Source: an uncultured Alphaproteobacteria bacterium (lineage in GTDB: Bacteria > Pseudomonadota > Alphaproteobacteria > Rs-D84). From it: a stretch of DNA of 64,000 nucleotides. The notes under the pieces are model-generated. The model did not search any database, had not been told where the DNA came from, and was given only the letters and a program-made list of their open reading frames with translations. Each line of letters begins with the position of its first letter. Position 1 is the stretch's first letter. Position numbers and translations under genes: made by a program. Below, piece by piece: positions 26,305-28,325 of the stretch. The DNA is taken from the NCBI GenBank assembly GCA_944392565.1, contig CALXWX010000001.1, positions 251,444 through 315,443 of the forward strand, in the 5' to 3' direction.

Positions 26305-26400
26305 ACGCGCCTATTTGTTTGATTGAACCCCCTTTCCCGGGGGTTCAAGTCCACATACACAAATACCAAAATAAAATCGGGCATTCGCCCGGTTTGATTT
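26305..26400 (-). repeat. Mirrored tRNA-Met 3' half, terminator and hairpin
   Basis: CGGGGGTTCAAGTCC (26338-26352) is an exact 15-bp inverted copy of the tRNA-Met T-arm segment at 26415-26429. The midpoint (26383) lies in the loop of the tRNA terminator CGGGC-ATTC-GCCCG (26378-26391). Immediately beyond, TTGAACCCCC pairs with GGGGGTTCAA (26324-26349) in a strong hairpin whose arms again match the T-arm. A GGCGCGT/ACGCGCC hairpin is at 26294-26311. Confidence 0.75.
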
Positions 26401-26477
26401 TGGTAGCGGGAGAGGGACTTGAACCCCCGACACGTGGATTATGATTCCACTGCTCTAACCAGCTGAGCTATCCCGCC
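26401..26477 (-). tRNA. tRNA-Met (CAT), elongator, CCA encoded
   Basis: GGCGGGATAGCTCAG start, anticodon loop ATCATAA giving CAT, T-loop TTCAAGT, acceptor end CGCTACCA with a G1-U72 wobble. The body and GCTACCA end match alphaproteobacterial elongator methionine tRNA rather than initiator (no C1-A72 mismatch, no three G-C pairs of the initiator anticodon stem). Confidence 0.92.
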
Positions 26478-26487
26478 AATGCCCCGA

Positions 26488-26515
26488 ATTATAACAAAGA
26501 AAATTCTAATTGCAA
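26488..26515 (-). promoter_or_regulatory. Promoter of tRNA-Met
   Basis: Minus strand TTGCAA, 16-bp spacer, TATAAT, ending 10 bases before the tRNA 5' end. Confidence 0.7.
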
Positions 26516-26527
26516 GCAACAAATAAT

Positions 26528-26556
26528 TTGCTTTTTATTTTCGACAATTTTATCAT
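26528..26556 (+). promoter_or_regulatory. Promoter of the structured RNA leader
   Basis: TTGCTT (26528-26533), 17-bp spacer, TATCAT (26551-26556). The expected transcript start, about 26563, coincides with the first base of the first hairpin. Confidence 0.5.
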
Positions 26557-26562
26557 GTTAAT

Positions 26563-26738
26563 TGTATCGGGGGTTCCGATACTGGGATTCAACACCCATT
26601 GTATGCACGTCTGTGCAGACGTTAAATGCCTCCTGCTATACATCGGCAGGAGTGTGATGTCATATATCGAAAGCATCACGCTATTACGCATACAATAGTG
26701 TTGAAACTCCTGCCGTCTGATAAAAATGACGGCTTTTT
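26563..26738 (+). ncRNA. Candidate riboswitch/attenuator upstream of the GT8 gene
   Basis: Helices in order: GTATCGG/CCGATAC (26564-26582); a closing helix CAACAC..ATTGTATGC with GCATACAAT.GTGTTG (26590-26606 with 26688-26703, 15 pairs with a small bulge); inside it three hairpins, ACGTCT/AGACGT (26607-26622), CTCCTGC/GCAGGAG (26630-26652) and GTGATG/CATCAC (26654-26679), forming a four-way junction. Then a terminator GCCGTC/GACGGC plus TTTTT (26712-26738). GGCAGGAG (26645-26652) can instead pair with CTCCTGCC (26707-26714), which overlaps the terminator stem: the mutually exclusive arrangement of a transcription-attenuating riboswitch. I do not recognise a known class. Confidence 0.65.
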
Positions 26739-26766
26739 AGTTTTATTCAACCCAGGGGTTTAAAGT

Positions 26767-27675
26767 ATGCGAAATAATTGGAAAACACGCGAATTTATTG
26801 CAAAAATCTTGTCAATCATTGGTCGAACACGCACTGCGCGTCGACAAATCCGTGATAAAATCAGATTTAAACATATTATTGGCGCACCACGACAACATAT
26901 ACCATTACATAAATATAATAAAAGGATTCCCATTGCATTTTGCTTTAATGACAATGGATATAAACTGGCATGCGTATCAATAAAATCACTGATTCTGGCA
27001 TCAAAAAACAGATGCGATTATGATATATATTGCGTTATTGACAGTGGCGTTTCCCCAGAACATCGCAAAATTGTATCAAGTATGACCCACGGTACAAAAT
27101 CACGCATAATATTTTTATCTGCAAATAATGACTTTGACAATGCATATCGCAGTGGTTGGCCCGCCGCCGTATTTTGGCGCCTGCAATTGCCAAAATTATT
27201 ACCAAATATTGACCAAATAATATATGCAGATATCGACATAATATTCCGCGATGATTTAATTGAATTATCGCGCCTGGATATGGGTGATAAAGTTTTAGCC
27301 GGCATCCCAGATTATACAAATGGATATATAAATTCTGGATTTCTGGTTATGAATTTAAAACAAATTCGTGCTGAAAAAATATATGAAAAATGGATATCTG
27401 TTGCAAACAGAAAAAAATACGATAATCCCGACCAAGATTTAATAAATTATACACTGCGCGGTCGAATACTGTTTTTACCATTAAAGTATAATTTTCAAAC
27501 TATGCTGGGTGCATGGATATTTAAAACGCATTCACAATATGAAATCAATGATTTATATCATAACCTGGTTGTAATACATTATTCTAATTGGATGAAACCA
27601 TGGGGACCAGAAAACACACGCCCAATATTTTCAGATATATGGTGGACCGTTGCACATGAAACAGGGCTGTATTAA
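26767..27675 (+). CDS. GT8-family glycosyltransferase, probably LPS core
   Basis: 302 residues. IPIAFCFNDNGYKLACVSIKSLILASK is the GT8 donor-binding start, YADIDIIF holds the DxD metal motif (about residue 157), and INSGFLVMNLK plus DQDLINYTL and VVIHYSN-W-MKPW are GT8 landmarks found in WaaI/WaaJ-type LPS glucosyl- or galactosyltransferases. A basic, amphipathic N-terminal stretch of about 50 residues precedes the domain. ATG 26767 follows CCAGGGGTTT. The gene lies directly behind the candidate riboswitch. The acceptor sugar cannot be told. Confidence 0.85.
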   Translation: MRNNWKTREFIAKILSIIGRTRTARRQIRDKIRFKHIIGAPRQHIPLHKYNKRIPIAFCFNDNGYKLACVSIKSLILASKNRCDYDIYCVIDSGVSPEHRKIVSSMTHGTKSRIIFLSANNDFDNAYRSGWPAAVFWRLQLPKLLPNIDQIIYADIDIIFRDDLIELSRLDMGDKVLAGIPDYTNGYINSGFLVMNLKQIRAEKIYEKWISVANRKKYDNPDQDLINYTLRGRILFLPLKYNFQTMLGAWIFKTHSQYEINDLYHNLVVIHYSNWMKPWGPENTRPIFSDIWWTVAHETGLY

Positions 27676-27764: not shown

Positions 27765-28325
27765 ATGAAAAAATTCGCGATATCTTTATTTACCATACTT
27801 TTTGCAACATCTGCGGCATTTGCAGATACAAATCCATTTATGGGCAATAATAAAAACCAAATTGCCCTGAACATTGGCCAGGGTGTAAACAGTGGCTTTT
27901 TAATTCCACCACCAACCCAACTGGTGCCATTTTACTTTTTACATGTACAATATTCACAACCAACAACATTCTTTAAATTACCGGCACGTCAATCAATAAA
28001 CATTGGTCAAACCCTGGGGTTTGGCAGCAAATATGGTTGGGATTGGGATAAATACACAATACCCATGATATTTTTAAGCGAAGATATTGCACTGGCACAT
28101 GGTGATAATTGGTACTTTGCGACCAGCATTGGCATGGGATTACAGGCACAACAAAACGAACGCCTGGGGGCAAAATTATTATTCCAGTTTAAACTGATTG
28201 GCGGATACAGAATAAACGACAAATGGGGACTGGAAATATTTATGCAACATTTTTCCAACGCCAACACCGCCACTGAAAATTATTCATACGCATTTTATGG
28301 CGCCGGATTCACATACAGCTTTTAA
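27765..28325 (+). CDS. PagL-like outer-membrane lipid A 3-O-deacylase
   Basis: 186 residues with a signal peptide cleaved after AFA. The mature protein alternates as an eight-stranded barrel ending in phenylalanine (YSF). The PagL catalytic segment is visible near the end as MQHFSNANTATENYSYAFYGAGF: His and Ser of the HxSN motif and a Glu a few residues later. Such enzymes remove the 3-O acyl chain of lipid A at the cell surface. It follows the GT8 gene by 90 bp but has its own predicted leaderless promoter. Both act on lipopolysaccharide. Confidence 0.72.
   Translation: MKKFAISLFTILFATSAAFADTNPFMGNNKNQIALNIGQGVNSGFLIPPPTQLVPFYFLHVQYSQPTTFFKLPARQSINIGQTLGFGSKYGWDWDKYTIPMIFLSEDIALAHGDNWYFATSIGMGLQAQQNERLGAKLLFQFKLIGGYRINDKWGLEIFMQHFSNANTATENYSYAFYGAGFTYSF

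Follow-up and report, generated by a model that had tools for sequence, protein, structure and literature searches.

A candidate cis-acting attenuator resembling sRNA-Xcc1 and phage C4 antisense RNA upstream of a glycosyltransferase gene in an uncultured alphaproteobacterium

The bacterial RNA sRNA-Xcc1 (Rfam RF02221) is reported as an 88-nt RNA, detected by Northern blotting and RACE, and many targets were predicted for it with sRNATarget, according to the available part of that work (PMC2996969). The accessible text of other papers places it upstream of symE in integron cassettes, where a divergent mechanism of symE regulation was proposed (PMC12444791), and counts seven copies in Xylella (PMC12189769) and 15 in a strain of Aeromonas salmonicida (PMC8780938). 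The c4 antisense and c4-a1b1 motifs are listed in a further source, available in part (PMC2864571). Our literature search, outside which most subscription papers fall, returned no statement, in the portions of the sources available, that sRNA-Xcc1 resembles C4 or acts as a leader in cis; PMC12444791 comes nearest. The Rfam entry is typed as an sRNA gene and, compared with the element described here, models the 3' half alone.

We analyzed a leader in a 64-kb stretch of DNA from an uncultured alphaproteobacterium (hereafter the window, meaning the whole stretch of 64,000 nucleotides). A preliminary description had proposed an undescribed, riboswitch-like RNA there, with a four-way junction closed by 15 pairs, a terminator, and two mutually exclusive pairings ahead of genes for a GT8 glycosyltransferase and a lipid A deacylase. 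We distinguish the following parts:

26528..26556, + strand: sigma70-like promoter (-35 TTGCTT at 26528-26533, 17-nt spacer, -10 TATCAT at 26551-26556)
26564..26582, + strand: 5' hairpin P0, GTATCGG/CCGATAC, which covaries
26584..26606, + strand: a1-b1, complementary to a' and b'
26588-26595, + strand: a1, TTCAACAC, the loop segment of hairpin Pa (GGG, loop, CCC)
26598-26606, + strand: b1, ATTGTATGC, 3' of Pa
26607..26622, + strand: hairpin P2, ACGTCT/AGACGT, from the predicted fold, counterpart of the family P2
26630..26652, + strand: hairpin P3, CTCCTGC/GCAGGAG (arms 26630-26636 and 26646-26652), competitor of PK2
26644..26715, + strand: PK2 (26644-26653 with 26706-26715), outer helix of the sRNA-Xcc1-like core and candidate antiterminator
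26654..26679, + strand: P4 with conserved internal loop UCAUAUAUCGAAAG (arms 26654-26659 and 26674-26679), which covaries
26681..26698, + strand: P6, CTATT/AATAG, whose loop and 3' arm contain b'
26688..26705, + strand: antisense segments b' (GCATACAAT, 26688-26696) and a' (GTGTTGAA, 26698-26705), partners of a1-b1 or, alternatively, of a2-b2
26712..26738, + strand: intrinsic terminator GCCGTC/GACGGC plus TTTTT (stem 26712-26717 with 26728-26733), in 6/6 window-type homologs
26746..26770, + strand: a2 TTCAAC (26746-26751), Shine-Dalgarno-like AGGGG (26754-26758) and b2 GTATGC (26765-26770) with the start codon, in 6/6 window-type homologs
26767..27675, + strand: GT8 glycosyltransferase gene, 302 aa (Pfam PF01501, E 9e-33)
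27765..28325, + strand: PagL-like lipid A deacylase gene, 186 aa (Pfam PF09411, E 6.7e-07)

Much of the preliminary description holds. CTCCTGC (26630-26636), GGCAGGAG (26645-26652) and CTCCTGCC (26707-26714) are where it placed them, the leader is structured, carries a terminator and has pairings that exclude each other, and Pfam agrees with GT8 and then PagL behind it. The GGCAGGAG/CTCCTGCC pairing can be extended to the 10 pairs of PK2 (-18.7 kcal/mol), and its overlap with the terminator is confirmed, positions 26712-26715 being common to PK2 and to the base of the terminator stem. The closing helix, on the other hand, counts 8 + 9 pairs instead of 15 (26588-26595/26698-26705 and 26598-26606/26688-26696), and these 17 pairs of a1b1 with a'b' form a duplex of -21.7 kcal/mol. 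Because both of its strands have other partners, the four-way junction survives as one state of the RNA and not as its sole fold, several states being possible. Two features come in addition: P0 with the sigma70-like promoter, and second copies of both closing strands around the GT8 ribosome-binding site (TTCAAC, and GTATGC, which includes the ATG). The structure of the leader is real: the minimum free energy of the 251-nt stretch is -77.2 kcal/mol, versus -54.8 +/- 4.5 in 200 dinucleotide shuffles, 0/200 of which were as low. The minus strand folds similarly strongly, as expected because the region is palindromic; it is therefore the promoter, the terminator and the gene, not the strength of the fold, that indicate the plus orientation.

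A DNA search of 59 relatives gave real homologs in three besides the own genome (G029, G020 and G010; E 2e-57 to 4e-47), the remaining matches being short and chance-like, and G092 and G062 were added by screening the GT8 orthologs of 96 genomes of the genus. Each of the resulting six window-type leaders lies upstream of the same GT8 gene. All six have the GCCGT terminator and a promoter (TTG[AC]TT-N17-TAT[CT]AT) whose distance from the GGGATTCAACACCC segment is identical (-27). P0 shows double-sided change at 4/7 pairs (four homologs), whereas the long closing strands are almost invariant, so that a1b1/a'b' lacks covariation within the window type. Triple use of the same letters would explain this invariance.

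Covariation was evident once a broader family was assembled. The region upstream of a second GT8 gene (L067) follows the same plan with different letters, and its leader, used as a DNA query, matched in 74/96 genomes of the genus. From 18 L067-type leaders we built alignment A3 and covariance model R1, after excluding L085, missed by a filter, and L070 and L084, in which the 5' half fails to pair with the 3' half and the two look like different copies (inter-copy recombination or assembly chimeras). In the A3 structure, which includes a pseudoknot of the hairpin loop a1 with a', 96.4% of cells are paired and both sides have changed in 96, compared with 26.5 +/- 4.2 in shuffles (0/500 reached 96); sliding the partners by 1-3 columns reduced pairing to 33-43%. 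The covariation check suggested in the preliminary description thus gives a strong signal. It extends to the pairing of a1/b1 with a'/b', nearly all pair types occurring in the b1-b' helix. The family P2 is 100% paired in A3 with 3 double-changed pairs, and the family PK2 is 95.6% paired with 4. P6 has counterparts in the family P6 (93.7% paired) and in the second hairpin of RF02221. P3 was rejected as a strongly supported helix: its 97.2% pairing in A3 is counted for 6 of its pairs, and per copy it exceeds shuffles only modestly, a median of 15/100 shuffles being equally good.

R1 detects the family in 140/156 genomes of the genus and relatives in 174/201 genomes of the order, from 17/23 genera (a set that includes the genus). 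Nine genomes of about 1 Mb searched in depth hold 8 to 21 copies each; copy numbers from the many-genome searches are "at least" figures, at most 8-17 candidates having been scored per search, and R1 and R2 (see below) have E-values from a shortened calibration. Of 7 R1 matches in the own genome, one is weak (E 0.03) and one is truncated; L207 1501-1616 is a truncated family copy there that lacks a1/a' and the 3' strand of PK2. The same genome also holds a second short-type copy (L291 1507-1575; C6:26907-26981) with Pa, P3, PK2, P6 and a terminator-like hairpin, without a close same-strand gene behind it, which may be an orphan leader or a standalone RNA. A pattern scan of named genomes yielded 68 loci, all titled as uncultured Alphaproteobacteria, Pseudomonadota or proteobacteria or as MAGs thereof, many from ruminant or horse gut samples. 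The host order is, we presume, GTDB order RF32. A viral origin of the order family was considered and rejected: among 16 exact pattern matches in viral contigs, L094 alone is a leader and the others are unrelated, and the window leader has no DNA match in phage. L094 (IMGVR_UViG_3300024272_005796) is near-identical to the L085 copy and lies near the end of a contig filed as viral.

The position of these copies suggests a role in cis. We examined 65 copies from five genomes (G000, G103, G073, G010 and G003). A lenient scan found an intrinsic terminator in 63/65, versus 303/2381 control positions, and in 54/65 the terminator starts at the identical base, 4 nt inside the 3' strand of PK2 (controls, 23/2381). 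A same-strand ORF of 60 aa or more starts within 70 nt of 59/65 copies. The contrast with random positions (667/1300) is weak, and the argument for action in cis therefore rests on the opposite-strand control, taken at the other end of the element (13/65). In 55 copies a gene start lies no more than 70 nt away, and for these the next gene begins, on the same strand, at a median of 44 nt. The window leader, which adjoins its gene and whose terminator overlaps PK2, conforms to this arrangement. The genes downstream are largely outer-membrane, secreted or glycosyltransferase genes: Pfam assigns the 58 downstream proteins, including the window GT8, to outer-membrane barrels, Chlamydia PMP repeats, YadA anchors, autotransporters, several glycosyltransferase families and LicD, and also to N6 methylase, superinfection immunity and HTH families. 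By a rough rule, 34/65 copies precede a product with a signal-peptide-like start.

Could the leader then be a true riboswitch, or a leader that senses a protein? The largely unpaired core (P4 internal loop UUAUAnAACA/GAAA) would be the aptamer, and its ligand would decide between P3 plus terminator and PK2. Mutually exclusive helices coupled to an in-register terminator fit this idea, as do the multiplicity of the element in a genome (as many as 21 copies ahead of surface genes, as if under a global signal) and loop bases that are invariant or nearly so without pairing to explain them. Yet the downstream genes also encode a DNA methylase, HTH regulators and a superinfection-immunity protein and, elsewhere, antirepressors and SymE, a mixture that suggests no shared metabolite. 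Moreover, the a and b segments are specific to each copy, as the flank comparison below makes plain. The designation as a riboswitch is thus unproven, given these functionally mixed genes and phage relatives that resemble C4-type antisense control, and we regard a ligand-sensing leader as unlikely.

What, then, is the leader related to? The preliminary description recognized no known class, and the Rfam searches agree. At gathering level only tRNAs matched in the whole window, and nothing convincing appeared in 26400-26800 at E 10, RF02221 (cut-off 53 bits) included, so that a direct Rfam family was rejected as the explanation. Two other candidates were discarded: 6S RNA (RF00013) has no match in the whole own genome, window included, at E up to 10, and the alpha tmRNA is present elsewhere. 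RF02221 does, on the other hand, match the 3' half of some copies of the family (L045, 55.5 bits, above the cut-off; L204, 46.3; L206, 35.3), its outer helix corresponding to PK2 and its inner stem to P4. We built a core model, R2, from 32 copies (alignment A7) chosen among 48 available non-redundant cores, with no window-type sequence among them (L272 had been omitted from alignment A6). The R2 core has 83 double-changed cells, versus 24.6 +/- 4.8 in shuffles. Run with filters off on the 64-kb window, R2 gave a single convincing match, at 26644-26717 (35.6 bits, E roughly 1.9e-05; the next best 10.6), and it scored 25.4 to 32.1 bits on the five other window-type leaders. R1, by comparison, reached 14.3 bits over the full length of the window leader with filters off and missed it with default filters. 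The alignment spans R2 1-85, its full length, with the outer helix, the P4 internal loop and the second hairpin present and the P5 hairpin absent. The window loop TCATATATCGAAAGC has direct counterparts in P5-less members such as L217 (GTTATATATCGAAGGC), whose P4 loop type it shares; copies without P2b also exist. Since R2 and RF02221 match the same wide-set loci, the cores are connected through the intermediate model. The leader is therefore hardly "undescribed": by this comparison it is a divergent, remote relative of sRNA-Xcc1.

Outside the order, R2 recovers genuine RF02221 members from phages as well as proteobacteria, with matches in 12/398 Pseudomonadota genomes (two from the own genus). 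The RF02221 consensus used as a DNA query matched 15/50,697 phage records, 4/72,556 plasmid records and 82/5,426 E. coli genomes, and the RF02221 model exceeds its cut-off at nine places in the wide-set loci (and in one order copy, L045). The genes behind the inspected outside copies encode antirepressors (Aaphi23, Pmp3), KilA-N, BRO, SymE, P22_AR_N and HTH proteins and some proteins of unassigned function. In L298, two RF02221 copies about 1.3 kb apart (222-301 and 1495-1582) are each followed by a SymE-like reading frame, the Pfam match to SymE having been run for one of the two. A sub-threshold c4-2 match (2885-2953; 34.8 bits, cut-off 41) lies in L295, the locus that also has an sRNA-Xcc1 copy ahead of a P22_AR_N gene. 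PK2 is immediately followed by a U run in at least one copy of the phage type (L301), where PK2 itself could act as the terminator.

The copies also carry antisense segments. We compared a' and b' of each copy with its own flanks and with the flanks of other copies, after removing duplicates with identical cores (as also done for the P3 shuffles). A b1 of at least 7 nt lies upstream in 56/65 order copies (6.9% with others' flanks) and 13/16 wide-set copies (7.1%), and an a1 of at least 6 nt in 58/65 (controls 26.7%) and 14/16 (17.1%), respectively. Downstream, a b2 of at least 7 nt is found in 5/16 phage, plasmid and other wide-set copies (mismatched controls 2.5%), reaching 11 nt before a BRO gene. 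Its frequency in the order family, 4/65 (controls 8.3%), is not beyond chance, the ribosome-site arm being absent there. An a2 of at least 6 nt is weak in both sets (5/16, controls 16.2%; 29/65, controls 34.4%). These complementarities suggest a tendency, in the copies from phages and plasmids and in those before SymE, to base-pair at the ribosome-binding site of the gene behind them, in the manner of phage C4 antisense RNA.

Such pairing bears on the idea that the element is the gene of a trans-acting small RNA, the role published for sRNA-Xcc1, with its 3' end at the terminator and no link to GT8 beyond lying ahead of it. The discrete 88-nt transcript and its many predicted targets (PMC2996969, available part) speak for it. 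The same-strand genes at a median of 44 nt, the a1b1 segments that complement a'b' copy by copy, and the wide-set antisense segments that match the start region of the adjacent gene itself all argue against it, and we consider an independent trans-acting RNA here quite improbable.

Within the order the window type stands apart: 6/6 of its leaders have TTCAAC and GTATGC on either side of the Shine-Dalgarno site. GTATGC is, by our reading, out of frame with the gene in L008, so coding does not explain it. Of 18 GT8 orthologs without the leader, none has TTCAAC/GTATGC near the start; the start was judged right, and the case counted, in 10 (L041, L042, L046, L051, L054, L056, L057, L059, L060 and L061). 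The a'b':a2b2 duplex of the window has -13.9 kcal/mol, with 21/1000 shuffles as low, and ranks 5th among 76 start regions; the other window-type leaders have -14.0 to -19.0 kcal/mol, with 0 to 6 of 500 shuffles as low. The predicted complementarity is thus present in the window, with moderate statistical support when the window is taken by itself. The window type has both devices, the terminator overlap and the ribosome-site arm.

We propose that the leader is a cis-acting attenuator, a divergent representative of a large family of leaders with homology to sRNA-Xcc1 in the 3' half, and that its mode of action is that of phage C4 antisense RNA; to this reading we give a probability of about 0.57. 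Transcription would start near 26563. With a1b1 paired to a'b', P3 would hold the 5' strand of PK2, the terminator would form and the GT8 message would stop early (OFF). A trigger that opens the closing helix or P3 would let PK2 form, taking the terminator-stem bases next to the U run, and transcription could then read through. The closed form with P3 and the terminator is more stable than the PK2 fold (nested energies of -63.0 versus -44.4 kcal/mol), which suggests termination by default and read-through when PK2 forms. A second lock may exist in the window type, where a free a'b' could bind a2b2 and so cover the start codon and the ribosome-binding site. Since a'b' would be left exposed in the PK2 fold, the two locks may work against each other; the sign of the switch and the order of events are the least certain parts of the proposal.

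A simple terminator or insulator, or else a repeat that is mobile but has no regulatory role, would account for the large number of scattered copies, for the degenerate or orphan ones among them (L207, L291) and for the one in a viral contig (L094). Such an element is not expected to show covariation in several helices, the alternative one included, a conserved promoter and gene-proximal placement, and we hold this explanation to be highly improbable. Taking up the attenuator again, we would put at even odds a broader proposition. Instead of being primarily trans-acting, sRNA-Xcc1 may be the 3' half of a widespread proteobacterial C4-type leader switch, which phages and integrons carry for the control of antirepressors and SymE. 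In a single order of reduced gut Alphaproteobacteria this switch may have been domesticated as a genome-wide, copy-addressable attenuator of the surface proteome, the terminator replacing the ribosome-site arm. This would link an Rfam sRNA of unclear function to the antisense logic of phage immunity, with a testable mechanism in cis. If true, a single family of RNA switches would sit ahead of as many as 21 genes, most of them surface-related, within a genome of 1 Mb, which would be unusual; the bacteria concerned are known chiefly through metagenomes. Since the pairings are specific to each copy, compensatory mutation offers a direct test of the cis model.

Three known systems frame the comparison. 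Terminator-antiterminator riboswitches share with the window leader two exclusive helices, one of which overlaps the terminator base, but the leader has no known aptamer class and has long copy-specific pairings. With RF02221 it shares the PK2 outer helix, P4 with its AUACAAUA...GAA internal loop and the second hairpin (P6); it differs in lacking P5, in having a complete 5' domain and in its terminator, which is separate and lies downstream. Like the C4 antisense RNA of phages P1/P7 (RF01695; c4-a1b1; c4-2, RF02944), the leader bears a' and b' within a structured RNA, and complementary segments lie on the 5' side (a1, b1) and around the start of the gene behind (a2, b2). Unlike C4, it matches neither the C4 nor the c4-2 model at E up to 10, and we do not file it as a C4 member; its downstream gene is GT8 instead of an antirepressor, and it adds the terminator overlap.
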